From assembly GCA_947174235.1 (NCBI GenBank), contig CAMWID010000018.1:1-49567 (forward strand): DNA of 49,567 nucleotides, in the 5' to 3' direction. Shown here in pieces: positions 9,036-46,221 of the stretch. The position numbers and the translations under genes are program-made. Each line of letters begins with the position of its first letter. Position 1 is the first letter of the stretch. The notes under the pieces are model-generated. The model saw nothing but the letters and a program-made list of their open reading frames with translations. It searched no databases and was not told where the DNA came from. The DNA comes from an uncultured Porphyromonadaceae bacterium. GTDB taxonomy: Bacteria > Bacteroidota > Bacteroidia > Bacteroidales > Muribaculaceae.

Positions 9036-9042
9036 ATATAAA

Positions 9043-9048
9043 CCTCCT
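9043..9048 (-). promoter_or_regulatory. Strong Shine-Dalgarno sequence deciding the endonuclease start
   Basis: AGGAGG lies 7 bases before ATG 9035. Such sites are unusual in Bacteroidales and absent from the neighbouring PUL genes, hinting at transfer from a lineage that uses them. Confidence 0.75.
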
Positions 9049-9068
9049 GTCGACATACAAATACAAAA

Positions 9069-11368: not shown

Positions 11369-12445
11369 TCAGATCCCTTTCATAGCCATACATTCCATCT
11401 CCACGAGCCATCCGGCACGGCAAACAGGAGCGTGAAGAATCACATACGGAATATCCCGGAATTTCTTTTCAAACATATCTTTCACGACGGCGTAGTCAGC
11501 CGGGTCTCGGAGATATACAATTATTTGTCCCACGTCTTCCCAACTGAAAGAGGCGGCATCAAGAAGAGCGCTGACATTTTCCCACATCCTGAGAGTCTGT
11601 TTACGAATGTCTCCCGGCGCCACTATCTGCCCCTTGTTGTCGATGCTCGCCGTTCCCGATATGAAAAGGTGCCTCCGGTCGTCGTAATCAATACTTGTGG
11701 CTCTTTCAAACGCGACTCCATATTCATATGTCGGATTGAGATGATCCGGGGCGTTCACCTGTCTCATCTTTCCCTCTTTCAGACCGAGTACTGAATATGT
11801 ATCCAACGCCACAGCGGCGGTACGGTCATACTGTCCGCCTCCGATCCCGGTGCTGGCTATAAATCTTGAGTGAGGTGTAAGCCCGAGCGCTCCAAACGCC
11901 TGGTTGCGCCCTTTTACCACCTCGGCATAGTCTACATCAACGTTTTGAACGAATATCCACGTCCTCACACAGCTTTCAAGAAGGCTTCCTCCTCTCTGCG
12001 CAAGAGCCTCGTGAGTGGAAGTCAGCATGAAAAGCATCGCATGGTAGGGATCCATGCCCGGACGCATACATCCTCCTTCGAACACGTGGGTGTGTCCGAA
12101 CGCCTGTACCGTATATCTGCCGTCGGCATCCCCGTCTACAGTCGCATCTTCAATCATCCAGACCCAGAGAGCCGCCTTGGTGAGATTCAATGGAGGCTGT
12201 TCTACAATAGATGTGGCACATTCCTTGTCGTCAGGCAGCAGTGGCTGCTGGTTGACAGAGTCGCTGAGAAACCAGCGACGGAATACAGGACGCATTCCGG
12301 GTCCGAGAGCCGCCTTTGCATTTTCATACTGAGAGGATATTTCCTCTATCTGGCTTTCAAATGTCAGAACGTGGTCGTCAATTGTGATTATGATGTGTGC
12401 TTCGCGTTTACCTCCCGAAGCTTTTAGAACTTTTGTCGTGATCAT
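11369..12445 (-). CDS. Rid-superfamily / chorismatase-like protein (358 aa)
   Basis: A soluble protein without signal peptide, hence probably cytoplasmic. The C-terminal third (about 240-356) has the YjgF/RidA pattern: HLFISGTASID, then AASFSWEDVGQIIVYLRD, and a final HAPVCRAGWLVEME. The middle (about 158-205) has CVRTWIFVQNVDVDYAEV, NQAFGALGLT and ASTGIGGG. These resemble the chorismatase group (FkbO, Hyg5, XanB2), two-lobed enzymes that hydrolyse chorismate. The CRxxWLVEME stretch (342-351) is where that group keeps catalytic residues, as I recall. A plain Rid-type imine deaminase is the alternative. It lies between the third propeller gene and GH5, with gaps of 89 and 115 bases. No role in glycan breakdown is known, so it may serve the module genes. 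Confidence 0.6.
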   Translation of the reverse strand: MITTKVLKASGGKREAHIIITIDDHVLTFESQIEEISSQYENAKAALGPGMRPVFRRWFLSDSVNQQPLLPDDKECATSIVEQPPLNLTKAALWVWMIEDATVDGDADGRYTVQAFGHTHVFEGGCMRPGMDPYHAMLFMLTSTHEALAQRGGSLLESCVRTWIFVQNVDVDYAEVVKGRNQAFGALGLTPHSRFIASTGIGGGQYDRTAAVALDTYSVLGLKEGKMRQVNAPDHLNPTYEYGVAFERATSIDYDDRRHLFISGTASIDNKGQIVAPGDIRKQTLRMWENVSALLDAASFSWEDVGQIIVYLRDPADYAVVKDMFEKKFRDIPYVILHAPVCRAGWLVEMECMAMKGI

Positions 12446-12534: not shown

Positions 12535-13986
12535 TTAATTTTTCCCTGCCATAGTCGCAGCCACATCGCGTGGACTGAAAGACACCGGGACAGCACCAAG
12601 ATCAGGGACATTGAAAGATTTTAGGTTGTCATCATAAAATGAAGGTGATTTCTGCGGAAGCAAAAATGGTTTTGATACCTTCCCATCAGGAGAAACATGG
12701 GCGAAATACGGTTTCCCATAAAGACCGTCGTCACGCTTGCTGGCAAAAACAAACCATCTTCCTGTAGCTGACCAACAGTGGTATGTGTCGCTCATCGGAC
12801 TGTTGACAATCATAAGACTGTCGATTTCTCCGGTGGTGAGATCCACCATCTGCAGATCCGCCTCACGGTGCCATATCGGGAATGTGCCGAAATCAGATAC
12901 GGTATACAGCAGCCGTCTCCCGTCAGGCGATACCCTCGGGTGGCTTACGCTCCTTTTCCCGGGCAGTCCCTTGACAATCGTGTCGGTGGATTGTCCGAAT
13001 GTACCTTGTCTCGGATCAAAGGCAATACGGCACAGGCTGTAATGGATGCTGTCGATAACAGATGGCCGTATCGGTCCGTCCGCCACGCAATAATAGATGC
13101 TGTTTCCGTCTGCCGAGAAAGTCGGGAAAGTCTCCAGTCTGGAGGAATCAGCAAGAAGAGGAGAACGCAACACTGCATCGCGTTGCAAATCATAGACGAA
13201 AATATCCGATTTGGTGTCGAATACTTCCAGCCGTTTGTCAGGACGAGAATGAAATGCCGGGATGATGGCGTTAGTGGAGAATACCAGGAACTGTCCGGAA
13301 GGATCGAATTGTGCGTATACCGGACCCGACACCATGTCAGGAGTTTTGAAATCCAGAAGTCGCAGGTTGCCGTGGTCATTCAGTACCATTCCGCCTCCTT
13401 CTCCACGAACATATAAAAAAGAGAGATCACCGTCTCCCGGAGCGTGGGTGTGACAATTCATGCATCGGTTGCCTACCGCGTTGTAGTCGCATAGGATACG
13501 TTCAGAAAAGTCACTGATATTTCTTTCCACTATCCGGAGCCGGGAGAAAACTTCATAGTCCGGTTCGATCAGCCTGTACGTGAGGTAGGGGTCGATCATG
13601 TCGCCGGATACGGCAATATCAAAGGACTTATACTTCGTCCAATCGTCTCCGTGAAGGACGGTGACAGAGACGGTTATGTTTTTCCCTTGTGCTTTGTCTA
13701 AAAGATTTTTCCATTCCGTGAGGTCAAAAATAGCTTCATTTCCCTTCTTGTGAGACTTTATCTCAAATCCTTCTGTCGCCGCCGTCACATAAACAGCCTC
13801 ACAGCTGTCGCGGAGAAGAAAATTGAGAGGTGCGATATTGCATGGCACTGTCACTCCGATATAATCCGGATATATATCGGGAAAGGCATCGGTTTCACTG
13901 ACATCTTCCGGACCGGGTACACACGCTTCCAGAAGTGTCAGCAATATGATTAAAGGTAAATATTTGAAATACATATTTGTGTTCAT
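12535..13986 (-). CDS. Beta-propeller lipoprotein with CxxCH motif, module C
   Basis: One of three paralogues, exported and lipid-anchored (LLEACVPG, Cys22). The N-terminal domain carries the family signature FPDIYPDYIGVTVPCNIAPL (about 35-54). A single CxxCH heme-type motif follows (CMNCH, C175/C178/H179), then a VRG-GGG-M stretch with a Met that could be a heme ligand. The C-terminal half (about 210-460) is a TolB/PD40-like propeller with repeats such as FDPSGQFLVFSTN, FSADGNSIYYC and VSPDGRRLLY. The start at 13986 is chosen because its ATG overlaps the TGA of the membrane gene (ATGA), implying coupling; ATG 13974 is the alternative. The family is often annotated as a TolB-like or cytochrome-like protein. 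Its ligand is unknown. Confidence 0.75.
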   Translation of the reverse strand: MNTNMYFKYLPLIILLTLLEACVPGPEDVSETDAFPDIYPDYIGVTVPCNIAPLNFLLRDSCEAVYVTAATEGFEIKSHKKGNEAIFDLTEWKNLLDKAQGKNITVSVTVLHGDDWTKYKSFDIAVSGDMIDPYLTYRLIEPDYEVFSRLRIVERNISDFSERILCDYNAVGNRCMNCHTHAPGDGDLSFLYVRGEGGGMVLNDHGNLRLLDFKTPDMVSGPVYAQFDPSGQFLVFSTNAIIPAFHSRPDKRLEVFDTKSDIFVYDLQRDAVLRSPLLADSSRLETFPTFSADGNSIYYCVADGPIRPSVIDSIHYSLCRIAFDPRQGTFGQSTDTIVKGLPGKRSVSHPRVSPDGRRLLYTVSDFGTFPIWHREADLQMVDLTTGEIDSLMIVNSPMSDTYHCWSATGRWFVFASKRDDGLYGKPYFAHVSPDGKVSKPFLLPQKSPSFYDDNLKSFNVPDLGAVPVSFSPRDVAATMAGKN

Positions 13987-15560
13987 TGTTTGTCGAAATA
14001 ATACCAATAGGTGTCTTTGAACGCGGGATCGCCTCGGCGGTTGCTGTATCTATTGAACGCATCCACCGTCGGACCGGGAATGATATACCTGTCCCATTCC
14101 GATTCCGGTACGTCAGTCCCGGCGAGATAGATCATCAATGCTTCCTGATATAGCTTTTTGTATCTTGGAGAACCCTTCTGTATGCAATACGTGTCATAAT
14201 CCATCTTGAAAGTGTCCATATCTTTCAACAGTAGATCAGTGCAAAGCAGATAATCGAGAGCGATAAGGTTTTTGTGATTGGATTCAAGGAGTTCCAGCAG
14301 AATATTCCGGCAGTTGTCACCAAGGCGTATATTGTCTTTATTGTTTGAGAGCGTGCGCCGGCGCGATATGTCCGCTTCAACGTCCGGAGGCATTTGTCCC
14401 GGGGTGTGTTTTTTGCTCCAGGCGGAGTAGGCGTGTGTCCGGTCAAGAATCCGAAGGTATTTCAAGGCTGCGAGAGTGTCGCCGCTGACAAGGTTTATTT
14501 CGGCAAGACGACAAATCATGCGCACATTGCGGTTGCGGGGAGAGAACACGTTTCTCATCATAGCCGCTCGTTCGGCATATGTCATGTCGCCGAGTTCGAA
14601 ATAAAGGTCGTTCATCATATTGATGACCGGAAGGGGAGAGGTTTCTCCGATTGTTGTCAGTGTGCCGAGACTTTTTATCTTATACTTCAGCAGATTGTCT
14701 GGAAGAGAATCTTGTAATGCGCTCGACAGGTAATAATAAAATGCGGATATCTCGTTTGGAGATTCTGCGTCGAGAGCAAGTTGTCTGGTCAGGTCATAGT
14801 CTTTGTCATGAAATGCATCTGCGATGGCAAGACGTTCCTCGTACTCATAGTTCGGCAATGCCGGCTTCGCGATTCCGGGATAAAAAAGGGCTTTCGAGTA
14901 CGGCAAAGCATAATATCCGGATAGAAAGGCGGGAGTGCCGGCAGCGAGAATTACTGCACACAATGCAGAGAACCAATGCCGGTCGCTCATGTATTTCCGG
15001 AGAATCCGTTTTATTGTAAATGCTGTTATCAGGAATGCTGAGATCAAAGCTCCGAATCCGAAAGCCCAATATGCCGCGACCACAAAAACAGGAGTTAAAT
15101 CAAGTCTGCGACATTTACCAAAAGATACCCTGTGTTGAAGCAACCCTAAAGCCAATCCTCCAGCCACGCAGAAATAAAACGGCAGGGTGGTGGCGGCATC
15201 CATGGAGCAGGCGATCAGCAATATCGCGAAGAGGACAGTCAATATGTATGAGGATATACCGGGTAGGATACGGCGGACACCTATGGCGAAGCATACCGTA
15301 CAAAAGGCGATCGCGAGAGTAAGGATTACCGCTCCCGCCACCGGATTGTGGTAATATTGGGTCAGCCAGTCTCCGGCAAGACATCCGAGCCATGCCGGTT
15401 TGTCGAAATAGGTCGCCACCCAGTGTGGAGTGTTAAGAAAAATCTGATTCTGCTCTTGCCATAAAAGATGAGAAGGATAAGCTGTAGCGTAGAATGCCGC
15501 GAGGATTACACAGCCTGCCAGACAAATTCCAGATATTATTATATCTTTGGGTTTAAGCAT
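13983..15560 (-). CDS. DUF6057-like polytopic membrane protein, module C
   Basis: The 525-residue inner-membrane protein has about seven to eight hydrophobic segments in its first 230 residues, then about 290 soluble residues that look helical and TPR-like. The N-terminal loop has WQEQNQIF, the counterpart of the E-x-x-QLF motif in the other two copies. It is the most divergent of the three paralogues: the GMTGQL motif of the soluble part is replaced by ALQDSL, and YWLAGP by YWAFGF. It follows propeller B by 6 bases and overlaps propeller C by 4. The match to DUF6057 is from memory of the family layout; biochemical function is unknown. Confidence 0.65.
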   Translation of the reverse strand: MLKPKDIIISGICLAGCVILAAFYATAYPSHLLWQEQNQIFLNTPHWVATYFDKPAWLGCLAGDWLTQYYHNPVAGAVILTLAIAFCTVCFAIGVRRILPGISSYILTVLFAILLIACSMDAATTLPFYFCVAGGLALGLLQHRVSFGKCRRLDLTPVFVVAAYWAFGFGALISAFLITAFTIKRILRKYMSDRHWFSALCAVILAAGTPAFLSGYYALPYSKALFYPGIAKPALPNYEYEERLAIADAFHDKDYDLTRQLALDAESPNEISAFYYYLSSALQDSLPDNLLKYKIKSLGTLTTIGETSPLPVINMMNDLYFELGDMTYAERAAMMRNVFSPRNRNVRMICRLAEINLVSGDTLAALKYLRILDRTHAYSAWSKKHTPGQMPPDVEADISRRRTLSNNKDNIRLGDNCRNILLELLESNHKNLIALDYLLCTDLLLKDMDTFKMDYDTYCIQKGSPRYKKLYQEALMIYLAGTDVPESEWDRYIIPGPTVDAFNRYSNRRGDPAFKDTYWYYFDKQ

Positions 15561-15566
15561 ATTTTG

Positions 15567-17033
15567 TTATTTTTTTACCGAAACATCGAGTGTCTTGCCG
15601 GATTTTACCATAGAGCGGACTTCCGGCATGTCAAGATCGATTTTTTCAGTGATGAAATCCGGAGCATTGAAAGAATGTAAAGCCTCGTCATAATATAGGC
15701 GTGGATTTTTTTGAGGGAGCAGGAACGGTTTTGTTGCTTTTCCGTCAGGTCCGATACACGAGAAATAAAGATTCCCATACATGCCGTCGAGACGTTTGCT
15801 GTTGAAAAGAAACCATCCTCCTCCTGTGCTCCAGTTGTGATAAGCGTCGCTGCAGTCGCTGTTTACCTCGGCAATATTCCGTGATTCACCAGTCGACAGA
15901 TCCATGATCCATAGGTCGGCGTCGGAGTGATGTATGGGGGATGTGCCGTAATCAGTGATGTTATACATCAGATACTTGCCGTCGTATGAGGGTCTCGGCA
16001 GGCTGGCGCTTTTCCCGAGATCCCCTGCGCAAACAAGAGTGTCGATCCGGGAGCCGAATGTCTCGGATTTTACGTCAAAATCAATGCTGCATAGACTGTA
16101 TTTCAACCTGTCGTATCCTCCGGGCATAGTCACGGAATCCGCCAGACAGAAATAAATTTTCTTTCCGTCGGGAGAGAAAGCGGGAGTTGTCTCGCAGCGT
16201 GGCGTCGCTACAACAGGCGAAGTTATGATCCGGTTTGTTTCCGTGTCAAGTACAATTATGTCAGAGACCACGTCCCATGGTTCGATGTTATGCTCTTTGT
16301 CGAGATAGAAATTCTGGACAATCTTGTTTACGGAGAAAGCGATATACCTGCCGTCCGGATGCCAGTACCCATATGTCGCGTTTCCTGCGGTCTCCGGTGC
16401 CTTGGTGTTCAGGTATACGAGATTCTTGCCGTTGTTGAGGATAGTTCCACCGTTTTTGCCCCTGACGTGTATGGAGAATTGATCATTTCTTCCCCTGTTC
16501 GAGTAATGGCAGTTAAGGCATTTCCCTTCGACGGCTGTCTCTTCAAGAACGGGAATCTCCTCGAAAGAAGAGATGTCGCGCTGATATATTCCTGTCTTGC
16601 TGAATGTCTGGTATCCAGGGGCTATCTTGCGGTAGACCACGCCGTAATCGTCAAGAGGAATATCGCTTACATGTATGACAAACGGCGCATAGCGTGACCA
16701 TTTTCCGTCGCGGTCCTTGACACTTACATCAAAAGAAAGATCAGCGCCGATATTTTGAGTCGTGAGATCATGCCATTTTTTCTCATCGAAATCAGCATAT
16801 CTTCCCGAAGTTTCCAGTTCGCCACCTTTCTCTCCGGTGACTTTCACATAAATATGTTCCGCGTTATCGTTTATGATATTAAAATTCATCGGGGCTATGC
16901 GGGAAGGAATGGTCACATCTGCATAATCAGGAAAAATATCCGGTTTTTCTGTAGATGGAGACATCTGAGGCGGTTTCCCGTGGCTGCAAGCCGCAAGGAT
17001 AGCACAGATGAAAATGTAGATATATGGTTTCAT
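15567..17033 (-). CDS. Beta-propeller lipoprotein with CxxCH motif, module B
   Basis: Paralogue of the proteins at 12535-13986 and 18831-20306. The start at 17033 (MKPYIYIFICAILAACSHG) gives a clean lipobox at Cys16 and a 4-base gap from the membrane gene; ATGs at 17045, 17063 and 17117 would overlap that gene. The signature KPDIFPDYADVTIPSRIAPM spans about 30-49. CLNCH is at C172/C175/H176. The Met found after the VRG box in copies A and C is absent here (GGTILNNG). Propeller blades include WHPDGRYIAFSVN, FSPDGKKIYFC and PSYDGKYLMYN. The conserved end PFLLPQKNPRLYYDEALHSF is shared by all three copies. Confidence 0.75.
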   Translation of the reverse strand: MKPYIYIFICAILAACSHGKPPQMSPSTEKPDIFPDYADVTIPSRIAPMNFNIINDNAEHIYVKVTGEKGGELETSGRYADFDEKKWHDLTTQNIGADLSFDVSVKDRDGKWSRYAPFVIHVSDIPLDDYGVVYRKIAPGYQTFSKTGIYQRDISSFEEIPVLEETAVEGKCLNCHYSNRGRNDQFSIHVRGKNGGTILNNGKNLVYLNTKAPETAGNATYGYWHPDGRYIAFSVNKIVQNFYLDKEHNIEPWDVVSDIIVLDTETNRIITSPVVATPRCETTPAFSPDGKKIYFCLADSVTMPGGYDRLKYSLCSIDFDVKSETFGSRIDTLVCAGDLGKSASLPRPSYDGKYLMYNITDYGTSPIHHSDADLWIMDLSTGESRNIAEVNSDCSDAYHNWSTGGGWFLFNSKRLDGMYGNLYFSCIGPDGKATKPFLLPQKNPRLYYDEALHSFNAPDFITEKIDLDMPEVRSMVKSGKTLDVSVKK

Positions 17034-17037
17034 AAAA

Positions 17038-18825
17038 TTATTCATGAGTATGTTGATATTCATTGGCAACTTCCGTCTGCTGACGTGTAAGGGATGTGTT
17101 AAGGAAATATATTCCATATGATCCAGGTGCGACGTTCTGCCATGAAGCGGGATTGTCTTTGTTTTTCATCACGGCTTGAGCCAAGGCTGCGGTCTGCTGT
17201 TTGACCTCATCCTTCAAATGGAATGGCAATCCTTCAAATGTAGGATGGTTGAAAGTCCAGTACATAGCTATGGCTTCCTGGACATGACGGGGAATAGGAA
17301 GTCCGGCATATGGATTGGACGGTGATCCATATGCTCCGGCGAGAGTGGCAATGTTTCCGTTCAGCATAGATGCGGCACAGAAATATTGCCAGGCAAGAGT
17401 ATTTTCTCCTCCGCTGTCAATGGCGAGGATAGCCAATATTTTGTCAATCTGCGAGTGATCATAAAACGCCTCTTCCCTGAAGGCGTTGCGGCGCATCTTT
17501 CCATAAGCCGGATGCTTCTCCACCGCATTGTCGTTCCATAGAAGAGTTTCCGCCTTGCGCGCCCAGTCAGCATAAAAGAGGCTGTTTCGCAGGAAGCCGA
17601 GGTATTTTGCCGCTACCTTGTAATTGCCGTTGATTATCATGCATTCAGCCATTCTTTTCATAAGTCTGCCGCTTTTGCGGTCGTTCATAATGGATTCCTG
17701 AAGGTCAAATGTTTTGGAGAACGCTATATTTGTAAGACCAAGATGAAAAAGTGCTTCGGCAGAAATAAGCTGGGAAGTGTTGTCAAGGCGGTTTTTTCCG
17801 ATGAGTCCTTCAATGCCGTTTTGGCTGTAGCGGAACATGGTCTCCGGCAGTTGCCCTGTCATTCCCAGGGCGAGGTTTACCGCCTGTAGAGAAAAAACAT
17901 CGGAAGGATTTTCATTTTGAGCTTTCTCTATGATGTCGGTCCATTTGCGTTGCCTTACAAGGGAATCATAAGACAGGATATCGCTTTTCGTTTTGTCGAA
18001 CGATGCCGGCACATAGATCATGGCGAAAGCAGCGGTTGCAATAGCTGAAAAATATGTGGCGGTGCGCCCGGCGCGAATCTTAGGAAGTGTGACAATCGGG
18101 AAAAACGCAATGAGAGCTGCAATGACTGACAGAATGCCGGGGTGAATCTCGGGGACTCTGTAATAGTTGATACCCAACAGCATGGAACTTAACGGATATT
18201 GCTCAAAAAATATGGAGTGCAAAGCCCATATAAAAGCGAATGCTACAGGAACCCCTATCGCTATGGCTTTCGGGCGGCGGCAAACTATTCCGGCGGCGAT
18301 CACAAAAGTTATAGCCATAGGTCCGGCAAGCCAATAAAGCGCGGCAAAACCTATGATAAGCGAAATCGTACAGACAAGAGAGGAAATACCCTTGAATAGA
18401 GAGCAAATATATATGAAAAGGGAAGACAGAATCATTGCCACGGCATACGAAAGAAGGATGTTTTCGTCAGACATCGCCCCGAGATAAATCAAAGATGGAA
18501 GCGCCGAGAGGATAAAAGCTGAACCAGAAAGGTTGCCGCGACGGCATGCCATGCCTAAAAACAGCTGTGACAAAGAGAGAACCAGAGCCGCCATCATCGC
18601 GCCATAGACAGGAACGTAGAAAAACTGCACCACAAATTCCGAAATATAATCAGCCATACCACCGGGAACCGAGATTGTATGTAGAAAATAGCTTCCGGTA
18701 AAAAGGAAAAGCTGGTTCCGCTCATGATAAAGCAGATATTGCGGACATTGTAGCCATAAAAATAGCCATATCGCTAAGAATATAACTATTGTATAAGCGC
18801 ATAAAATTATGTTTTTGCGTGTCAT
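17038..18825 (-). CDS. DUF6057-like polytopic membrane protein, module B
   Basis: The 595-residue membrane protein closely parallels the copy at 20396-22231. The first TM segment is followed by YHERNQLFLFTGSYF and a PGGMADYISEFVVQFF loop, then about seven more hydrophobic segments including LYWLAGP. The soluble C-terminal part (about 290-595) has NLALGMTGQL and EKHPAYGKMR motifs and looks like helical repeats. It starts 5 bases after propeller A and ends 4 bases before propeller B, so it is certainly co-transcribed. The soluble part may face the periplasm and contact the partner lipoprotein; that is inference. Confidence 0.7.
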   Translation of the reverse strand: MTRKNIILCAYTIVIFLAIWLFLWLQCPQYLLYHERNQLFLFTGSYFLHTISVPGGMADYISEFVVQFFYVPVYGAMMAALVLSLSQLFLGMACRRGNLSGSAFILSALPSLIYLGAMSDENILLSYAVAMILSSLFIYICSLFKGISSLVCTISLIIGFAALYWLAGPMAITFVIAAGIVCRRPKAIAIGVPVAFAFIWALHSIFFEQYPLSSMLLGINYYRVPEIHPGILSVIAALIAFFPIVTLPKIRAGRTATYFSAIATAAFAMIYVPASFDKTKSDILSYDSLVRQRKWTDIIEKAQNENPSDVFSLQAVNLALGMTGQLPETMFRYSQNGIEGLIGKNRLDNTSQLISAEALFHLGLTNIAFSKTFDLQESIMNDRKSGRLMKRMAECMIINGNYKVAAKYLGFLRNSLFYADWARKAETLLWNDNAVEKHPAYGKMRRNAFREEAFYDHSQIDKILAILAIDSGGENTLAWQYFCAASMLNGNIATLAGAYGSPSNPYAGLPIPRHVQEAIAMYWTFNHPTFEGLPFHLKDEVKQQTAALAQAVMKNKDNPASWQNVAPGSYGIYFLNTSLTRQQTEVANEYQHTHE

Positions 18826-18830
18826 TATTT

Positions 18831-20306
18831 CTAAGGTTTAACTTTAGTCGGAATCCGTTCGTCAGAAAGGATAGCGCCAACAGCTTCGCGACTGTCGAGA
18901 TCGACTTTGGTTTTTGTGAAGTCGGGAGTGTTGAAAGAATAGAGTGACTGTATGTAATAATCTTTTGGATTCTTCTGGGGAAGAAGGAAAGGTTTTGAGA
19001 ATACGCCGTTGTCATCTATCCCTGTGATATAAAGGTGGGAGTATAGTCCGTCATGGCGACGGGATGTAAATACCACCCATCGACTGTTGTCACTCCAGTT
19101 GTGGAAACTGTCGGCGTCGCTGCTGTTGATTTCGTCTGTCGGGCGGGCTTCGCCGGTGTCCAGGTCGAGCAGCCATTGGTCGGACTCCTTATGCCAGATG
19201 CTGAAATATCCGTAATCACAGAGTGTGAACAGGATATATTTCCCGTCGTACGAGGGCCGCGGCCATGTCACGCTCTTGTCAATCGCAACGGCGTTGAAAA
19301 GGGTGTCGACTTTTTCTCCGAAGCGACCTGTGTTTTCATCAAAAGAAATGCGGCAGAGATTATATTTTTCATCTTTATGTTTCAGCGGATATTCCTGTTG
19401 ATAGCAGGTTGTGAAATATAGCCATTTCCCGTCAGGAGAAAAGGAAGGAGTGTTTTCCGACCATGCCTTTGTGTTAAGCAGTGAGTCAAGAATAATCTCG
19501 TTTTTCTCAGTATCGTATACAAGTACATCGGAAGATATGTCGAAAACTTCCAGTCTCTTCCCTTTCGATATATGGAATCCCTGCCGGGTCTGGTTGGTAG
19601 AGAATGCGCAATATCGTCCCGAGGGGTGCCAGTATGGATATACCATCGATCCTCCGAGATCTTCGCTGGATGCTTTGAGCCATGTACACGCGCCGTTTTT
19701 CCGCACCATAGTCGCGCCGTGTTCACCTCTGACATGAAACACCAAGTCTTTTGGATCCGTCCGGTTGGAAGTGTGGCAGTTATAGCATTGACCGTCAGTC
19801 ATAGTATTTTCAATGATAGGGAATTCGTCGAAATTGCCGAGATCTCTTTGATAAATACCCATCTTGCTGTATACCTCATAACCGGGAGCTATACGCCTGT
19901 AGGTAAGTCCCCACTGTTCAAGCGGCCAGGAACTTACATTGATGTTGAAATCATCATATTTTATCCATTCGCCGTCTGTCTTTGCGCAGACGGATACTGT
20001 GAGCCGTTTTCCTTTGTTAGCCTCCGTAAGTGCATGCCATTCGTCTATGTCAAATTCCGCATATTCCCCGTTGGAATGAATTTCATATCCGTTGTCACCT
20101 TTGACGGTTACGTCGACACGCTTTACATCAGCATTATCGCTTATTACGGCAAAATTAAGAGGAGCGATTCCCGCCGGTATGGTCACATCGGTATAGTCAG
20201 GAAAGATGGGAGGTAAAGATGCCACTCTTTCTACATTATCCGGTTTGCTTCCGCAACCAAGAAGAGTAAGAGTGATTAATACGGAAAGTATTTTGTATTT
20301 TGTCAT
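18831..20306 (-). CDS. Beta-propeller lipoprotein with CxxCH motif, module A
   Basis: First of the three paralogous lipoproteins in transcription order. The signal peptide ends at LTLLGCGS (Cys18). The signature LPPIFPDYTDVTIPAGIAPL spans about 31-50. Between about 55 and 165 lies a beta-rich domain, then CYNCH (C174/C177/H178) and a candidate ligand Met200 in HVRGEHGATM. Propeller blades follow: WHPSGRYCAFSTN, FSPDGKWLYFT, PSYDGKYILFT and WSDNSRWVVFTSRR. A c-type heme in the periplasm is the direct reading of CxxCH, but one motif in an otherwise non-cytochrome protein needs proof; a metal site is the alternative. It follows membrane gene A after an 89-base gap with two hairpins. Confidence 0.75.
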   Translation of the reverse strand: MTKYKILSVLITLTLLGCGSKPDNVERVASLPPIFPDYTDVTIPAGIAPLNFAVISDNADVKRVDVTVKGDNGYEIHSNGEYAEFDIDEWHALTEANKGKRLTVSVCAKTDGEWIKYDDFNINVSSWPLEQWGLTYRRIAPGYEVYSKMGIYQRDLGNFDEFPIIENTMTDGQCYNCHTSNRTDPKDLVFHVRGEHGATMVRKNGACTWLKASSEDLGGSMVYPYWHPSGRYCAFSTNQTRQGFHISKGKRLEVFDISSDVLVYDTEKNEIILDSLLNTKAWSENTPSFSPDGKWLYFTTCYQQEYPLKHKDEKYNLCRISFDENTGRFGEKVDTLFNAVAIDKSVTWPRPSYDGKYILFTLCDYGYFSIWHKESDQWLLDLDTGEARPTDEINSSDADSFHNWSDNSRWVVFTSRRHDGLYSHLYITGIDDNGVFSKPFLLPQKNPKDYYIQSLYSFNTPDFTKTKVDLDSREAVGAILSDERIPTKVKP

Positions 20307-20341
20307 TTGGTATTCGGTTGATGGTTTTTGTTTTTACCGGG

Positions 20342-20391
20342 GACAGTCACTGTGTGACTGTCACACGACAAAAGAATAGGGGCTTTTGTCG
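20342..20391 (-). promoter_or_regulatory. Twin hairpins between membrane gene A and propeller gene A
   Basis: Two adjacent perfect stems of 9 bp lie at 20342-20362 (GACAGTCAC / GTGACTGTC) and 20366-20391 (CGACAAAAG / CTTTTGTCG). Neither ends in a T-run on the minus strand. They probably protect or process the mRNA and so set the ratio of the two proteins. Confidence 0.55.
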
Positions 20392-20395
20392 CGGC

Positions 20396-22231
20396 TCATT
20401 CTTGAGACAGTAGGTAGTGGAAAAGTGTGCGGCGGTAAGGCTCCAGAAGTGATGGATTTTTACTTGTCCATGCCTGGGCGAAGTTGCGCAGAGACTGTTC
20501 CACTGCCTGAGGAACTATATTCTTAGGTATCGGCTGACCGTTTTTCATGGAGATAAAAGCCAGTGCCTGTTGTGCAAGCAGAGGGTTGTAGCTTGGCTGG
20601 GTTTCGGCGACGACCCCCATATATTGTGCGAACTTATTGAGATCGCGCTGAAGCAACGGATAAAGAATCAGATATTGTTTCGCCAGATTATTTCCGGAAT
20701 CTTTCAAGTAGAGCTGACCTAATGTCTTGTCAAGTTCCCCCTCGCTGAAAAGATAATCTTCATCTATCATTTTTTTTCTCATGGATCCGTATAACGGATG
20801 TTTATCGACAGCCTCTGGGTTGTTGAGCAGGTCAAGATTTCTTTGTGCCCACTTTTTATAGAAAATAGTGTTTTCAAGTATCGCCAGATATTTCTTCGCT
20901 AAAGAGTATTCCCCCCGGATAATGGCTGTTTCCGCAAGACGTTTTATCGCCCTGCCGCTCTTGTTGTAATTCGGGATAGCCTCCATCCCTTCGAAATAGA
21001 ACCGCTGGGCACTGTTGATCATGCCGAGTTGAAAAAATATCTCACCTGTGGTCCAAGAGGATAATGTCTCTTTTACGAATGGTGGAATCAGCCCTTCTGC
21101 ACCGTGTTGACGGTAATCAAACGCCCTGCAGTCGAGTTGTCCGGTCATACCTGCCGCGAGATTGGTGGCACTGACGCTGAGAGGGAGATCCGGATCGTGT
21201 TTATCTGAATAATCGAGAATGCCTTTCCAGTTATTTGCCCTGACCATGTAGTCATAGTCAATCAGACGGTAAGTGGTCCGGTCATAAGATTTCGGATAAA
21301 AAAATATTACGGCTAAGATTTCCACTGCGGCAAGTGTCGGCGCAATGGCTTTCTGTGGCATACGTGCAAATACTGCCGCCAAAACAGGGACAACGACGCA
21401 CAGAGCCGCGACAATGATCTGTCCGGTATACACCATGTCAGGAATCATCATATATCCTATCCCGGTCAGTTGGTAACCAATCGGGTATGTAAGAATGCAT
21501 GACCATGCATAGATGTTGGCAGCGAGACATCCCACTGCTACGGTTGCGTATATTGCTTTGTATAAAAACGAAGCCTCTCTGTCTGTATAGATATATGCGG
21601 TGGTTGTTAAAGTGAAGATTACAGAGGCGGGACCTGCCAGCCAATAAAGAAGAGAGGTGCCGGCGATCATCAATAGATATGTAATCGCACACCGGGTTGT
21701 TTTATTGCAGATTGGCTGATATTTCCCCGCTGCATTCCTACGGTTGAAATCAGCAATTGTGAAAAGATATGTTCCGGCGGCAGAGACAATTATTGCAATC
21801 ATGAAAGTCAAAGTCACATCCGGATTCCCAAAAAATAAAAACATGGAAAAGAACGGGAGCAAGGAAAGAGAAAGGTTGGTGAATCTGGGAATTGATGGTG
21901 CGAATTTTCTGTTGACAAGATAGCATATCAGCAGAAACAGCGTCATTAATCCGCACATTACTGCCGCGCCGATACGGAAATCGTTGAAAAATTGTGTAAG
22001 AAACTCGCCTATATATGTCGCCGGACCTCCCGGGCGTCCGGCAAGGCTGTTGAAATATGTGTCTGTTGTCTGGAACAATTGCAGTTGCTCTCTGTAGCTG
22101 AGGGCTGCGCGATAGGGAACTGCCCAGAAATAATAGATGAAAACAGCGATAGCTGAAAAGATTCCTGCAAGGATATATTTTGATGAAGACGAAGCCTTGG
22201 CTCCGTATCCATTCCGGATTTCTTTTGCCAT
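20396..22231 (-). CDS. DUF6057-like polytopic membrane protein, module A
   Basis: The 611-residue protein is the first gene of the triplicated module. About eight or nine hydrophobic segments fill the first 320 residues, with YREQLQLFQTTDTYF after TM1, a GGPATYIGEFLTQFF loop, and LLYWLAGP. The soluble tail carries NLAAGMTGQL, HGAEGLIP and DKHPLYGSMRKK, shared with copy B. The start at 22231 (MAKEIRNGYG) is chosen because a -7 box at 22263-22256 puts the transcript start near 22249; the longer frame to 22297 would begin upstream of that. The family is of unknown function. The layout of membrane domain plus helical tail could be a transporter, an enzyme or a scaffold for the lipoproteins. Confidence 0.7.
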   Translation of the reverse strand: MAKEIRNGYGAKASSSSKYILAGIFSAIAVFIYYFWAVPYRAALSYREQLQLFQTTDTYFNSLAGRPGGPATYIGEFLTQFFNDFRIGAAVMCGLMTLFLLICYLVNRKFAPSIPRFTNLSLSLLPFFSMFLFFGNPDVTLTFMIAIIVSAAGTYLFTIADFNRRNAAGKYQPICNKTTRCAITYLLMIAGTSLLYWLAGPASVIFTLTTTAYIYTDREASFLYKAIYATVAVGCLAANIYAWSCILTYPIGYQLTGIGYMMIPDMVYTGQIIVAALCVVVPVLAAVFARMPQKAIAPTLAAVEILAVIFFYPKSYDRTTYRLIDYDYMVRANNWKGILDYSDKHDPDLPLSVSATNLAAGMTGQLDCRAFDYRQHGAEGLIPPFVKETLSSWTTGEIFFQLGMINSAQRFYFEGMEAIPNYNKSGRAIKRLAETAIIRGEYSLAKKYLAILENTIFYKKWAQRNLDLLNNPEAVDKHPLYGSMRKKMIDEDYLFSEGELDKTLGQLYLKDSGNNLAKQYLILYPLLQRDLNKFAQYMGVVAETQPSYNPLLAQQALAFISMKNGQPIPKNIVPQAVEQSLRNFAQAWTSKNPSLLEPYRRTLFHYLLSQE

Positions 22232-22372: not shown

Positions 22373-22966
22373 TCAGTCCGGATCTCCGTATCTCTGCTGA
22401 AGGACATCATAGGCGGTGCCGGATCCGAGTCCTCTCATGAGATCGTGAATTTCGCTTATGTAATGTTCGTTGAAAATTTTAAGCGAGTCGGAGAGTGATT
22501 TGGCATAGACAGTGTCACCTTGTGCCTGGAGATATTTGATATATTGAGACTGATTCCAATGTACGCGGTCACGGTTTCCTTTCAGCTCTTTCCATTTCTG
22601 GAGTGCATCGTTCTGTGGTGTGCCTCCGGCAGAAGATATGCTGTCGATAACCACGGAAATCACTCCCGGTTCAATTACCACAAGCAGATCCTGAGTGCCG
22701 TAACGTACTTTTTTGTCGACAGTCACACGGGCAAGAAATTCCCCTTTGTGACCACGGAATTCAAATTTGCCGTCTTTAATTTCCGTGGAATCCACTCCTA
22801 TGCTGTCTTCATATTCGGGAGTACCGTAAGGAACTATAAAAACTCTATGACCGTTGAGTCGCGAAAGGGAAGTTGTCCCTTTTACGATATATTCGTCATT
22901 ATTGTCGGTGCAACATGTCACACCGGCACCGAGCATTGCGAGCAACAGATATAAAAGTTTTCTCAT
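22373..22966 (-). CDS. DUF4369-like lipoprotein
   Basis: The 197-residue exported lipoprotein starts at 22966 (MRKLLYLLLAMLGAGVTCC), chosen for its signal peptide; the longer upstream frame has none. Residues about 30-130 show the DUF4369 pattern: a small beta domain with SLNGHRVFI-type opening, DSIGVDSTEIKDGKFEFRG and LLVVIEPGVISVVID. DUF4369 domains often precede a thioredoxin fold, but none is present here; the last about 70 residues are helical and charged. It follows the glycan-binding gene after an 86-base gap holding a terminator and no visible promoter, so it probably depends on read-through. Function unknown. Confidence 0.7.
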   Translation of the reverse strand: MRKLLYLLLAMLGAGVTCCTDNNDEYIVKGTTSLSRLNGHRVFIVPYGTPEYEDSIGVDSTEIKDGKFEFRGHKGEFLARVTVDKKVRYGTQDLLVVIEPGVISVVIDSISSAGGTPQNDALQKWKELKGNRDRVHWNQSQYIKYLQAQGDTVYAKSLSDSLKIFNEHYISEIHDLMRGLGSGTAYDVLQQRYGDPD

Positions 22967-22997
22967 TGAGTCAGATTTTTTATAAAACAAGAACGGT

Positions 22998-23032
22998 AAA
23001 AAAAGGATGCGCATTGTGTGATGCGCATCCTT
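22998..23032 (-). terminator. Strong terminator after the glycan-binding lipoprotein gene
   Basis: AAGGATGCGCAT / ATGCGCATCCTT is a perfect 12-bp stem with a 6-base loop, followed on the minus strand by a run of T. It should end most susC-susD-binding protein transcripts. Confidence 0.85.
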
Positions 23033-23052
23033 AAATAAAGTCCGCTCAGAGA

Positions 23053-24555
23053 TTACTTGCCGAATGACCACCAAGTACATTCGCTCCAGGCATCACCCGA
23101 TGTAGAATAAAGAAGCACCATCGCGTCCGAACCAAGATAGCCGATGTCGAATACAGTGGGCTGGAATCCACCTGTATTGATGGCGAAAGGCCACAGGATC
23201 AGACCTTCAGAAGTGTTGAGGGTTCCGATTCTGAATTTTTCGGCATCCGGGGTCATGTCGAGAGAGAATGAACCCTGACGGATCTGTTCGCCGTCCTTGC
23301 CGAATACAGTGATTGAAGCCTCGTCTTCATTGAAGACCATCTTCGCGGTGGAATATTCCTCACCTTCCACATAAGCTGGACCTGCATGATTCATCTGTTC
23401 ATCGAATTTGGAAGGGCAATCGCCGTCGTTGACACCGCATCCCCACCAAGCTCCATTGATGGCGCCTGTGCCGTCCTGTGAACCTGCGCAATAACCTCCG
23501 TTGCCCCATACGGCTCCTCCGTTGACCTGGGTAGGTTTCCAGTGCCAGTCATGAGATGCGAGTACTCCTGAAGGATCGTCGTCGCTCATGAAAGACCACC
23601 ACGTACATTCGCTCCAGGCATCACCTGATACAGAGTAGAGGAGCACCATACGTGATACGTCAAGATAGCCTATATTGAATGTTGTAGGCTGCATGCCATC
23701 TGTATTGATAGCGAACGGCCAGAGGATCGCTCCTTCCGAGGTCTCAAGAGTACCCCTTGAGAAAGTGTCGGCATTTGTGATCTCGTTGTTGTTGTAATTC
23801 TTGATCGCAAACGAACCTTCGTTGATCTTTTCTCCGGTGTTGCTGTAGGCTGTCAAAGAACCGTCTTCATTAAATTCCATGTATGACAACGCATAGCATT
23901 CCCCTTTGATCTCATCATATCTGCCTCCGGCGTGTTTTGTCTGGGTGCTGAACGTTTCAGCGCAATCACCGTCATCAACGCCGCAGCCCCACCAAGCACC
24001 GTTGATGGTCAGGCTGCCGTCCTGTTCGCCTGCGCAGTATCCGCCGTTGCCCCAGACAGCACCTCCGTTGACTTCTGTCGGCAACCATTTCCATTTTTTT
24101 CTACCGCTGTTGGATACGAGAATCTTGGCGGCGGGATCAAGAGCCTGTGCAACCTCAAGAGTGAACTGCTTCTGTGCAACCACCTCTGTTCCGTCTTCAT
24201 TGAGGTAGGAGAAATAGAGGGTCTGCAGCGGGTCGCTGCCACGGGAAGGCATGTAGTAGATCATGCCGCCGGCGCGGCCATATGACAGGGTTTTCTTCTC
24301 CCCGTTCTTTTCGTAGTATACATTTACAGCCGATACGCCGGGGATATTGAACTGAATATAGTTGCCGGTTTCGGAAGGAACATAAGAGACTTTGCCGTCA
24401 TCGCCGGTAACTGCATTGAACTGAGCGAAAGTGGCTCCGTTCAAAAGAGATTCCGCAGTCATAGTGTTTGATACGAAATCGCCTTCAGCCATCTGCGGGT
24501 CGCAAGAGGTGAACAATACACCTGCAACGCCCAATATCAAAAGTGTTTTTTTCAT
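23053..24555 (-). CDS. Surface glycan-binding lipoprotein with duplicated aromatic domain
   Basis: Third gene of the susC-susD operon, in the place of SusE/F-type binding proteins. The lipobox is FTSCDP (Cys18). An N-terminal beta domain (about 30-140) is followed by two copies of one domain of about 165 residues (155-322 and 337-498). Each copy has NGGAVWGNGGYCAG, INGAWWGCGV, LILWPFAINT or ILWPFAINT, and ends SGDAWSECTWWSF. Identity between the two copies is high in these blocks. The exposed Trp/Tyr clusters suit binding of a beta-glucan chain, and paired cysteines (YC, GC, DC, EC) may form disulfides. Cell-surface location and xyloglucan as ligand are inferred from context. I do not recognise the repeated domain. 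Confidence 0.75.
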   Translation of the reverse strand: MKKTLLILGVAGVLFTSCDPQMAEGDFVSNTMTAESLLNGATFAQFNAVTGDDGKVSYVPSETGNYIQFNIPGVSAVNVYYEKNGEKKTLSYGRAGGMIYYMPSRGSDPLQTLYFSYLNEDGTEVVAQKQFTLEVAQALDPAAKILVSNSGRKKWKWLPTEVNGGAVWGNGGYCAGEQDGSLTINGAWWGCGVDDGDCAETFSTQTKHAGGRYDEIKGECYALSYMEFNEDGSLTAYSNTGEKINEGSFAIKNYNNNEITNADTFSRGTLETSEGAILWPFAINTDGMQPTTFNIGYLDVSRMVLLYSVSGDAWSECTWWSFMSDDDPSGVLASHDWHWKPTQVNGGAVWGNGGYCAGSQDGTGAINGAWWGCGVNDGDCPSKFDEQMNHAGPAYVEGEEYSTAKMVFNEDEASITVFGKDGEQIRQGSFSLDMTPDAEKFRIGTLNTSEGLILWPFAINTGGFQPTVFDIGYLGSDAMVLLYSTSGDAWSECTWWSFGK

Positions 24556-24575: not shown

Positions 24576-26417
24576 TTAGTAAACAGGTGTGCTTGCCATA
24601 TTCCAATCGCTTGCATCGGTTCCCCATCCGGCGTTCTGCTTCAGTACCTCGGGATTGTTTACGATGTTGATCTGACCGGGAGGTATTGGAAGGAATCCGT
24701 TGGTCACGGCATAACGCTGCGCCCATGAAGAGGATGCGTGATGCATTGTAGTCCAGCGACCTGTATAGTTTACAGCTGAACCGTTCTGTTTCTCAAGAGC
24801 CAAAGCGGCTTCGCAGGTTGTCCCGCCATCTATGCCAGACCAGCGGCGCAGGTCGTTGAAGCGGATTCCCTCGCCGTAGAGTTCCCAGCGGCGTTCGTTC
24901 TTTATATTTGTCCACGAATAGCTTGTCTGGGCTACGCCGGCACGAGCCTGAACCCGGTTCATCATTGTAGGATCGCCGGTGAGCTCGGTGTGCATGAGCA
25001 TTACGTCGGCAAGACGGAGCAGGATAATGTCGTTGAAATGGTCACCCTGGAACGAGTTGCCGTTAGTATTTGCCACAGTAGAGTTCTGGACACGGAACAC
25101 ACCCCACCATGTGTAGGCATCGGCATGGTCTGACCAGCTTGACTGGCTGCAAGTTATTGAAATCCATTTCTTGTTGTATTTCCCGGTTTCCTCAGAGCAG
25201 GAAGTAGTGTATGCGAATTGCTGTAGTTCTGTGTCGCAGTCAAGCACGGTGGCCTTTTTGCGTGGATCGCTTGCCGGCCATTCGTTTACGGAGTTCATAT
25301 TGAATACGCCTTGTCCCCATCCCTGTCCGAATGGAAGAGTCTCGGGACCGCCGTTCTCCTTGCCTTCTTCATTGGCATCGCAACGGAGACCGTTGTAGAG
25401 GGCTGTCATGTTGGTGAAACCCATCGCCACGGTACCGTTCCAGGTAGCGATATTTGAGAACTGAACCTGGAAGAGCTGCTCTTTGTTGCCGTTGCCCGCC
25501 CAATATTTTTTTGCATCAGCAAGATCCTTCACATATTCATAATCCGGGGCTGTCAGTTCGTTTGTATATTGCCAGAGCTGACGGAAGTCTGGGATAAGTT
25601 CAGATCCTGAATTGTTGATGCAGTCTTCAAGGTAAGATACTACCTGAGCTTTCGAGAGGGGACCGTTCACACCCTCCTGTTCGGGAAGTTCGACATCTGG
25701 AAGCGAAGCGGATGCGAGTTCGCCGGCTTTGTTGTAGAATCCCTGATAGAACATGTAAGCACGTGCGAGGTATCCTTCAGCCGCGCCTTTCATCGCATGT
25801 CCGTCGCCCCATGTGGTCGCTCCGTTTGTCATAAGATTGGAGGCGGATACGAAATCGGCGAGGATGTGAGGATAGATCACGTCCTTGGCGCTTTGCTGCG
25901 GACAGGGATCGGGAGCGGCTGCAGCCCAGTAAGCCGGGATATCACCCCAGAACTGTGTGCCCCAAAGGTAGAACAGACCGCGCATGAAATATGCTTCGCC
26001 GAGAAGCTGGTTGCGTGTGGTCTCATTGCCCGACCAGTCGAACGCGTCAACCGAATAGATAATCGCGTTAGCGCGTGCGATACCCACATAAGTGTTGTGC
26101 CATGCCGCGCTGTAGAGCTCGTCCTTGTTGGTCATGAGGTGACCGATAGCGTGTGCCTCGATGTCACCTGTTCCGCCGCCGCCGTTGGCATCGTCAGACA
26201 TTATGTCCCAGACCAGCCATGGAGTCTGCAACGGGTCATTGGCATATTGGTTCATCACTCCGTAGAGTGCGGCAAGTTCCTTGTTGAGATCTTCAGGTGC
26301 CGCAGGGTAGTTGCCGGTATTTGCCTCATTATAGTTGTTCGTGTCAAGGAAATCCTCACACGAAGTGAGAGAGAGCATCCCGACAGCGGCTAAAGTGATC
26401 AAAAGATTTTTTTTCAT
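24576..26417 (-). CDS. susD: SusD/RagB-family outer-membrane lipoprotein
   Basis: The glycan-capturing lid of a SusCD transporter. The lipobox is LTSCEDF (Cys20), followed by the usual helical SusD N-terminus (SWHNTYVGIARAN-like AAWHNTYVGIARAN, LLGEAYFMRGLFYLW). The C-terminal WELYGEGIRFNDLRRW is typical of the family. The length of 613 residues is normal. It lies 30 bases after the susC gene and 20 before the glycan-binding gene. It would hold oligosaccharides over the SusC barrel at the cell surface. Confidence 0.95.
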   Translation of the reverse strand: MKKNLLITLAAVGMLSLTSCEDFLDTNNYNEANTGNYPAAPEDLNKELAALYGVMNQYANDPLQTPWLVWDIMSDDANGGGGTGDIEAHAIGHLMTNKDELYSAAWHNTYVGIARANAIIYSVDAFDWSGNETTRNQLLGEAYFMRGLFYLWGTQFWGDIPAYWAAAAPDPCPQQSAKDVIYPHILADFVSASNLMTNGATTWGDGHAMKGAAEGYLARAYMFYQGFYNKAGELASASLPDVELPEQEGVNGPLSKAQVVSYLEDCINNSGSELIPDFRQLWQYTNELTAPDYEYVKDLADAKKYWAGNGNKEQLFQVQFSNIATWNGTVAMGFTNMTALYNGLRCDANEEGKENGGPETLPFGQGWGQGVFNMNSVNEWPASDPRKKATVLDCDTELQQFAYTTSCSEETGKYNKKWISITCSQSSWSDHADAYTWWGVFRVQNSTVANTNGNSFQGDHFNDIILLRLADVMLMHTELTGDPTMMNRVQARAGVAQTSYSWTNIKNERRWELYGEGIRFNDLRRWSGIDGGTTCEAALALEKQNGSAVNYTGRWTTMHHASSSWAQRYAVTNGFLPIPPGQINIVNNPEVLKQNAGWGTDASDWNMASTPVY

Positions 26418-43531: not shown

Positions 43532-43563
43532 AGATCAGATTTTAAATTGTCAATTTAATTCCA

Positions 43564-43571
43564 CAAAATTA
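43564..43571 (-). promoter_or_regulatory. -7 box for the SGNH hydrolase gene
   Basis: TAATTTTG fits TAnnTTTG, with a TTG 22 bases upstream; predicted start near 43557, 26 bases before the ATG. Confidence 0.5.
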
Positions 43572-43583
43572 ATCCATTTTTAG

Positions 43584-43591
43584 TAATTTTG
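43584..43591 (+). promoter_or_regulatory. -7 box for the small membrane protein gene
   Basis: TAATTTTG on the plus strand, 13 bases from the oppositely directed box, so the two promoters would overlap. No good -33 element. Confidence 0.4.
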
Positions 43592-43691
43592 CACAACAAA
43601 GTATTCACTTTGTTCCGTTATCGTCGCCAAAGGTCAGATTGTAAGTATAAATCTGTCAACATCAAGTCATAGAATACAAACTATAATACCC

Positions 43692-44165: not shown

Positions 44166-44436
44166 CTGAAATCACGAATTTATTCTCAGCCTGGAGCGTG
44201 TTCCTTAAAATAGAGGTCTTACGGTTTCTCAGATTACTGTGTATCGGTCTGAAAAAAGCTTCGCTATTTCGAATGGATACATTATTCCTGATGGGGTGCG
44301 GCATATTTAGCTTCCATGCGTTGATTATAAAAACAAGAGAGAGAGATGCATCGCGCACCCCTCACTCCTGCTGAACTGATTTTAAGATATTATATTTTAA
44401 TTTTACGTATGAGTATTATCTTTCTACGTATGAATG

Positions 44437-46197: not shown

Positions 46198-46221
46198 AAT
46201 GATTTTTCTTAAAAATGAATA

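Follow-up and report, generated by a model that had tools for sequence, protein, structure and literature searches.

What do three tandem copies of a gene pair, one encoding a membrane protein and the other a lipoprotein, contribute to a plant-sugar gene cluster (PUL)? The question is raised by a 49,567-nucleotide stretch of DNA (the window), in which six genes of the minus strand, read from 22231 to 12535, strictly alternate between a DUF6057 membrane protein (MEM) and a propeller lipoprotein (LIP). The reading that we favour, with a probability of about 0.4, is that MEM and LIP form one envelope complex, in which a c-heme propeller and a GT-C/TPR protein act together on a glycan product.

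Organization of the locus

The gene coordinates bear out the threefold membrane/lipoprotein alternation of the preliminary description, together with its spacing of -4 to 6 bases except for one gap of 89; from mem1 to lip3, the intergenic gaps are 89, 5, 4, 6 and -4 bases. The first pair consists of mem1 (20396..22231, on the minus strand like all features below; 611 aa), with a GT-C-like membrane region and a C-terminal TPR-like domain, and lip1 (18831..20306; 491 aa), with an N-terminal beta domain and a six-bladed TolB-like propeller. The second pair comprises mem2 (17038..18825; 595 aa) and lip2 (15567..17033; 488 aa), and the third mem3 (13983..15560; 525 aa) and lip3 (12535..13986; 483 aa); mem2 and mem3 are DUF6057 proteins, and lip2 and lip3 are CxNCH propeller lipoproteins. 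The start of lip2 was picked by its lipobox; an alternative in-frame ATG at 17045 gives a protein of 492 aa and would turn the mem2-lip2 gap of 4 bases into an 8-base overlap.

Upstream of mem1 lies a gene for a DUF4369 protein (22373..23080; PF14289), a frequent companion that occupies the same position in other loci. It is preceded by X500 (23053..24555), a 500-aa lipoprotein with two similar halves (judged by eye), and by susD (24576..26417; PF07980, PF14322) and susC (26448..29708). X500 had no Pfam match at E ≤ 0.01 and no PDB match at E ≤ 1; considering its position only, it is perhaps a surface glycan-binding protein. On the other side of the array, a Rid/chorismatase-like protein of 358 aa (11369..12445) matches PF01042. 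A search of the window's own genome (96.6% complete) for DUF6057 paralogues beyond the window found none.

Pairing and joint inheritance of MEM and LIP

In a survey of 150 genomes, the window's own among them, a MEM match was located at most 400 bp from 49 of the 59 LIP matches. This is the opposite of the rare adjacency that had been named as a reason to give up the idea of a MEM/LIP unit, and the unit itself holds as a conserved pair, which is frequently located next to susCD, DUF4369 and glycan enzymes. The pair counts exclude LIP matches weaker than E 1e-100 (PD40 noise) and DUF6057 matches below the cut-off (G047, G099), and split MEM matches were merged (G066, G108:C36, G113:C53). LIP is present in 24 of the 25 DUF6057 genomes of this survey, while a partner within 5 kb is missing for 6/59 LIPs and 8/62 MEMs, several of them near contig ends. 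At one locus (L134), LIP and MEM flank other genes at a distance of about 5.5 kb, and one genome of the phylum sample (G499) lacks LIP, its DUF6057 match being split.

Additionally, the distances of MEM and LIP co-vary with r 0.94, a value that drops to 0.74 or less on exchanging partners within a locus; this is evidence that the two are inherited together, as is nearly always the case in gut Bacteroidales, rather than of contact between them. Since Prevotella rows fall in with every one of the three LIP types, the triplication is old, and three old paralogous pairs fit three specialised versions. That the pair is ordinary PUL cargo, i.e., unrelated accessory genes joined to susCD repeatedly by chance, is extremely improbable: the pair is found near many other genes as well, as such cargo might be, but the pairing, the distance co-variation and the cross-phylum fusion described below contradict this explanation.

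Among the best 25 of 109 neighbour families, glycan enzymes and esterases rank on top, with 2-4 members each. In a scan of 91 of 168 neighbour ORFs, hand-picked, mostly unclassified and under ~650 aa, no constant partner besides the pair was found. Several genes inserted into the arrays of relatives were taken as outside the module: a KilA-N gene (L034) and LuxR- and AAA-type genes (L045), both between DUF4369 and mem1, AAA-ATPase/PDDEXK genes between X500 and DUF4369 (L037), and a transposase-like gene between two pairs (L077). In one case only (L042), an FMN_bind gene is located upstream of a mem3-type gene.

LIP propellers and the CxNCH motif

The LIP model is a six-bladed PD40 propeller with a TolB-like fold, the blades being counted by hand. 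Pfam searches at E ≤ 0.01 gave PD40 only (43-49 bits), in agreement with the PD40-like propeller proposed earlier, and LIP profiles run against solved structures matched TolB-like and other propeller repeats only. No NCBIfam family scored above its cut-off for LIP, and lip1 alone, compared by sequence with solved structures, returned nothing at E ≤ 1. In the aligned set (n=62, each at least 34% identical to lip1), 60 LIPs carry the lipobox pattern expected of an exported lipoprotein. The xFPDY signature of the preliminary description persists as [FY]PDY, its F not being universal (lip3 has YPDY).

TolB-like is a label for the fold only. Against the TolB family, the LIPs score 21.7-31.5 bits, far below the cut-off of 343.15, and their neighbours susCD, DUF4369, MEM and Rid set them apart from it. 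The earlier statement that TolB-like families have no assigned function does not extend to TolB itself, the Tol-Pal beta propeller, which has a known role; TolB is not known to be a heme protein.

Each LIP contains a single CxNCH motif, C174-H178 in lip1 (CYNCH; 19773..19787), C172-H176 in lip2 (CLNCH; 16506..16520) and C175-H179 in lip3 (CMNCH; 13450..13464), and these starts match the single CxxCH near residues 172-175 noted before. Beyond what chance would give, the motif is invariant in 62/62 aligned LIPs. It is also present without exception in the 240 database homologues listed, 120 each from sets of 5886 and 6987 matches, of which those past the listed ones possibly rest on PD40 or TPR alone. 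The LIP family therefore has the conserved CxxCH by which a c-type cytochrome is recognised. In the model, CxNCH stands at the start of an inner beta strand (lip1 174-181), and an invariant histidine, H402 of lip1 (19101..19103), a candidate second ligand, lies on an inner propeller strand as well; as assigned from the strand list of the model, both strands line the channel. The CxxCH of heme c is usually helical, and the modelled placement on a beta strand would be unusual for heme c.

That LIP carries heme at CxNCH is inferred from genomic context, namely the cytochrome c assembly genes found in the same genomes and the Rid-ccsBA neighbourhood (see the next section). No cytochrome family matches LIP at the family level, and the matches to cytochrome domains are weak (NapC/NirT, E 0.0066 in 1/62; CCP_MauG, E 0.082 in 2/62). 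LIP resembles cytochrome cd1 nitrite reductase in joining a propeller to a c heme, putative in LIP; in that enzyme, the cytochrome c domain is separate and the propeller has eight blades with heme d1, whereas no separate cytochrome domain was found in LIP. The hydrazine synthase alpha subunit, to which LIP is 9% identical, bears its hemes outside the propeller, in its middle and C-terminal domains (PMC12758564, PMC12607021). Searches of the open-licence PMC literature found no papers joining beta-propeller, CXXCH and lipoprotein in Bacteroidetes, nor any joining polysaccharide utilization with c-type cytochrome lipoprotein and SusD.

The same residues could serve a site of another kind. LIP without heme would hold Zn, Cu or Mn, or a disulfide, through C174, C177, H178 and H402 at the central channel, and would be a metalloenzyme or a glycan-piece binding protein tethered to MEM. 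We consider this somewhat unlikely, although the model places CxNCH and H402 on channel-lining strands and the strictly fixed N of CxNCH suggests a tight site, e.g., a metal site. The Foldseek neighbours of LIP point in the same direction: besides cytochrome cd1 nitrite reductase, they include oligogalacturonate lyase with Mn, thiocyanate dehydrogenase and arylsulfate sulfotransferase, three propellers that have a metal or histidine site at their centre. A metal site leaves unexplained the co-occurrence with cytochrome c assembly genes and the lip3-Rid-ccsBA order reported in the next section; with such a site, LIP would still be a cross-phylum family with a candidate active site.

Cytochrome c assembly genes and the Rid neighbour

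PF01578 (cytochrome c assembly) is present in 11/11 LIP genomes with a completeness of 90% or more, compared with 53/79 others, and also in 4/4 LIP genomes of a further count and in 3/3 fusion genomes. Genome size and kinship are confounders of this co-occurrence, and PF01578 includes System I proteins too. Both PF01578 and ResB are absent from 3 of 24 LIP genomes (G012, G082, G088; 59-86% complete).

The gene order lip3-Rid-ccsBA was observed in the neighbourhood survey. Most full-length relatives of Rid adjoin ccsBA and a few adjoin LIP; the 36 Rid matches of the 150-genome survey exclude matches to the C-terminal domain only and the split G148 match. The Rid gene of the window (12445-11369) scores 49.9 bits against TIGR04444 (FkbO/Hyg5 chorismatases), far below the cut-off of 325, and no relevant papers on chorismatase with cytochrome c in Bacteroid lineages were found in the open-licence PMC literature.

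The MEM proteins and their possible GT-C-like fold

With 431.7 (mem1), 412.4 (mem2) and 328.4 bits (mem3), all three MEMs score well above the curated cut-off of PF19529 (29.8 bits); mem3 lacks a 52-residue piece late in the membrane region, equivalent to mem1 259-310. The NCBIfam search gave no family at all for MEM, a sequence search of solved structures with mem2 alone gave nothing at E ≤ 1, and the corresponding profile search gave chance-level matches only. No papers on DUF6057 were found in the open-licence PMC literature.

In the mem1 model, the membrane region (residues 10-324; 21260..22204) aligns with STT3 (rows 8age_A, 7oci_F and 8agc_A); the likeness is weak, with a score below the tool's caution level of ~13 for helical proteins, and Foldseek gave no match at E ≤ 0.001 (3waj row, a weak E 0.034). 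Residues 317-611 (20399..21283) are helical, and the soluble tail described earlier is recognisable here as a TPR-like domain, the TPR rows aligning mainly to 317-478.

The E-x-x-Q-x-F motif attributed to all MEMs after TM1 occurs in mem1 (E48-F53, EQLQLF; 22073..22090), mem2 (E35-F40, ERNQLF; 18706..18723) and mem3 (E36-F41, EQNQIF; 15438..15455), but a short MEM lineage reads WYDEMSLF. The position of F53 is conserved in 48/48 aligned MEMs and that of E48 is acidic in 47/48, so that MEM resembles the GT-C enzymes STT3, PMT and ArnT in having an acidic residue in the first outer loop. STT3 has a second acidic motif in the TM3-TM4 loop; in contrast, a GDEN/SDEN-like second motif is found in part of the MEMs only and is absent from mem3 types, and TM3-TM4 GDEN was dropped as a general catalytic motif for this reason.

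Could MEM be no more than an assembly partner of LIP? The TPR proteins NrfG and CcmI play a holding role for other cytochromes, and the TPR domain of MEM could hold unfolded LIP for heme attachment or sorting, with the membrane region as a non-enzymatic scaffold. This role is consistent with the one-to-one ratio of MEM and LIP in most loci, their joint inheritance, the presence of TPR and the retention of only the first acidic residue. Nevertheless, it is unlikely, given that eight or nine passes make the GT-C-like region large for a scaffold and that other phyla fuse TPR to the propeller, more as a working part than as a chaperone.

At the other extreme, MEM could be an active GT-C glycosyltransferase, with LIP as acceptor or specificity subunit and CxNCH as a structural element. 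The STT3-like fold and the acid after TM1 argue for it, as does the GT-C + TPR layout that passages of PMC7801869 describe for the TMTC O-mannosyltransferases and that the modelled MEM resembles, with fewer membrane helices (8-9, counted by hand) than the 11 of TMTC and 13 of ArnT given there. This possibility is also improbable: the second catalytic motif is not in all members, the search of GT-C families by sequence gave nothing significant (a single E 0.021 match among the best 25 families), and the cytochrome c assembly link is left unexplained. No papers on a periplasmic GT-C + TPR glycosyltransferase in Bacteroidetes were found in the open-licence PMC literature.

Proposed complex and propeller-TPR fusions in other phyla

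In the envelope complex that we favour, LIP would be held on the periplasmic side as a lipoprotein. Its propeller would bear a single c-type heme, bound covalently to CxNCH by the CcsBA-type ligase of the cell, and H402, invariant and located on another blade, would be a possible second heme ligand. MEM would be an inner-membrane protein with a GT-C-like fold, whose C-terminal TPR domain would grip the LIP propeller in the periplasm. The complex would act on a glycan, either lipid-linked or periplasmic, that the neighbouring polysaccharide-utilisation genes produce, the heme being a redox centre or a redox switch, and the three pairs would be old paralogues with separate roles. Heme in LIP would bring heme chemistry into gut-bacterial sugar-use clusters, where heme supply and redox state vary by host, and DUF6057 gains a partner and a possible fold.

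Propeller-TPR fusions were found in Kapabacteria, Ignavibacteriae, Aminicenantes and others, and make up half of the 240 LIP homologues listed. They share homology with LIP across both of its domains (E 2.6e-40), CxNCH in 120/120 listed, and the precomputed Pfam family PF26549, in many also PF26550; lip1 H402 aligns with a histidine of these proteins. Unlike LIP, they carry TPR within the propeller's own chain, and H372 is not kept. The three fusion genomes in the survey gave no match to DUF6057.

LIP and the fusions might together represent a new kind of c-type cytochrome, with heme on a channel-lining strand of a six-bladed propeller that works with a TPR domain, in one chain in several phyla but divided in Bacteroidales between a lipoprotein and a membrane enzyme of GT-C fold, although we regard this as doubtful. 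Within PULs, such a cytochrome would make plant-polysaccharide use include a step of glycosyl transfer or glycan oxidation that depends on heme and is under redox control. If LIP carries heme, this cytochrome family has so far been named mostly 'hypothetical protein' or 'tetratricopeptide repeat protein'; these are the names of the fusions where one is given, and a few rows add 'Tol biopolymer transport system component'.

Organisation of the window

The window is a single contig (G000:C18, G000 being its own genome) in a 3.4 Mb assembly. The minus strand carries, in order, susC, susD, a 500-aa lipoprotein, a DUF4369 protein, the array mem1-lip1-mem2-lip2-mem3-lip3, a Rid/chorismatase-like protein and a BACON-GH5 enzyme, where MEM is the DUF6057 (PF19529) membrane protein and LIP a lipoprotein with a TolB-like propeller and a single CxNCH motif. 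The plus strand carries an HTCS regulator, GH31, GH2 and GH3. The joint presence of GH5, GH31, GH2, GH3 and GH95 fits a xyloglucan-type cluster, judging by enzyme families. The gene-level statements of the preliminary description stand as a whole, with small points corrected: the LIP signature reads [FY]PDY, and the MEM glutamate motif is WYDEMSLF in a short MEM lineage. Elsewhere in the window, two neighbouring C-5 cytosine DNA methylase genes (PF00145; 5488-8023) and a 309-aa protein lacking a Pfam match (8127-9056) possibly constitute a restriction-modification island next to the glycan cluster, and a second susC/susD pair with a GDSL-like esterase occupies the right end (42833-49503).

Pairing of MEM and LIP across genomes

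In a survey of 150 genomes, including the window's own, DUF6057 scored above cut-off in 25 and LIP gave a strong match in 24, all within those 25; the leftover DUF6057 genome is 61% complete. The families had been described as forming modules, and they do adjoin: a MEM lies within 400 bp of 49 of the 59 LIP hits and within 5 kb of 4 more. Counted from the 62 MEM hits, a LIP is no more than 400 bp away for 50 of them and falls inside 5 kb for another 4. This leaves 6 LIPs and 8 MEMs with no partner inside 5 kb. Among fetched loci, a set biased toward these families and with one genome represented twice, MEM is immediately upstream of 47 of 48 LIP ORFs. The identical pairing occurs in named loci of Prevotella, Cryptobacteroides and others, and the middle pair is missing entirely from two relatives (L039 and L045). 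Besides the window's genome, a phylum sample of 395 genomes contained four with a strong LIP (G495, G542, G188 and G227), all with DUF6057; G499 showed a split DUF6057 match and no LIP. LIP and MEM distances correlated at r 0.94 over 45 non-identical pairs; in 5000 trials with partners swapped inside a locus, the coefficient stayed at or below 0.74. At the sequence level, this shows that the two genes travel and diverge jointly, a correlation that does not prove physical contact.

In a tree of 48 LIPs, whose few long branches make the deeper forks unsure, each of lip1, lip2 and lip3 groups with out-of-genus Prevotella sequences in a clade with support (100/99, 96/97 and 100/99, respectively). 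The three types therefore predate the divergence of these families, barring lateral transfer of whole pairs between them. A different layout marks another, shorter MEM lineage of the same genus, in which a prolyl oligopeptidase gene separates LIP from MEM (L139, L143 and L144; the L141 and L147 stretches stop short of MEM). In L143 and L147 of this lineage, LIP has susCD and GH5 upstream of it; in L139, L141 and L144 its neighbours are GH31 and GDSL genes. The array of relatives seems to gather insertions, because KilA-N (L034:6252-7055), AAA-ATPase/PDDEXK (L037:4682-6241), LuxR/AAA (L045:3664-6826) and transposase-like (L077:10764-11645) genes occupy different spots within it. In Prevotella, a mem3-type gene is immediately preceded by an FMN-binding-domain gene (L042:13725-14141, minus strand).

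A putative periplasmic heme complex

We propose, with a probability of roughly 0.42, that the LIP c-heme propeller and the MEM GT-C/TPR protein would form one membrane-anchored periplasmic complex acting for the neighbouring glycan system. In Bacteroidetes, surface export of lipoproteins follows a rule based on acidic residues after the lipobox cysteine. A simple pattern identified a lipobox in 60 LIPs (the cysteine being misplaced in a few); none of these has three or more acidic residues in the five positions that follow, and the window susD reads CEDFLD there. Under this rule, the absence of the acidic signal points to the periplasm rather than the surface as the probable side of LIP.

The CxNCH motif and its strict conservation would allow a heme. 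Alternatively, the motif may be a metal site, a rival reading that we rate somewhat lower than the heme complex. Two features count against heme: the motif is modelled on a beta strand, and the second of its spacer residues is invariably N, a choice that is atypical of heme c and would be in keeping with metal binding. Genome co-occurrence favours heme. The cytochrome c assembly family PF01578, which comprises CcsA and related proteins, is present in 11/11 LIP genomes at least 90% complete versus 53/79 others (p 0.018, or 0.015 without the one of the 53 below the family cut-off, ignoring genome size and kinship). PF01578 or ResB occurs in 21 of 24 LIP genomes versus 76 of 126 others (p 0.007, with the same two factors ignored), the three exceptions being 59-86% complete. 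PF01578 is also present in the four further LIP genomes of the phylum sample, one a single contig, and in 3 of 3 surveyed genomes encoding cross-phylum CxNCH propeller-TPR fusions. This fusion family, for which our searches of open-licence PMC papers gave no described function, is the most general result and extends past the preliminary description.

Association of the Rid-like gene with ccsBA

The gene following lip3 (11369-12445) encodes a 358-aa Rid/chorismatase-like protein and is a second link of LIP to cytochrome c assembly; a search of open-licence PMC papers yielded no role for such ~360-aa proteins in cytochrome c maturation. Across the 150 genomes, 28 of 36 full-length relatives (~360 aa), nearly all from the window's genus, have ccs matches no more than 0.9 kb away, and 4 of the 8 located elsewhere lie within 100 bp of a LIP. 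One genome (L045/L076) has the order mem1-lip1-mem3-lip3-Rid-ccsBA. Long Rid-like proteins also occur near MEM or LIP in the distant loci L133, L135 and L136 (208, 65 and 63 bits, the latter two weak). Of the two fusion neighbourhoods fetched, L138 contained no Rid-like gene, and in L137 a weak match (36 bits) adjoins the fusion gene. The window genome's own Rid paralogue (G000:C79:8577-9674) is flanked by a PSCyt1 protein and ccsBA, with a dihaem oxidoreductase and an imelysin encoded before them. The complete run there (G000:C79:2477-11782) reads Porin_O_P, imelysin, dihaem oxidoreductase, Porin_O_P, PSCyt1 protein, Rid and ccsBA; by ORF layout alone, L140 and L141 have ORFs similar in size and order ahead of Rid and ccsBA.
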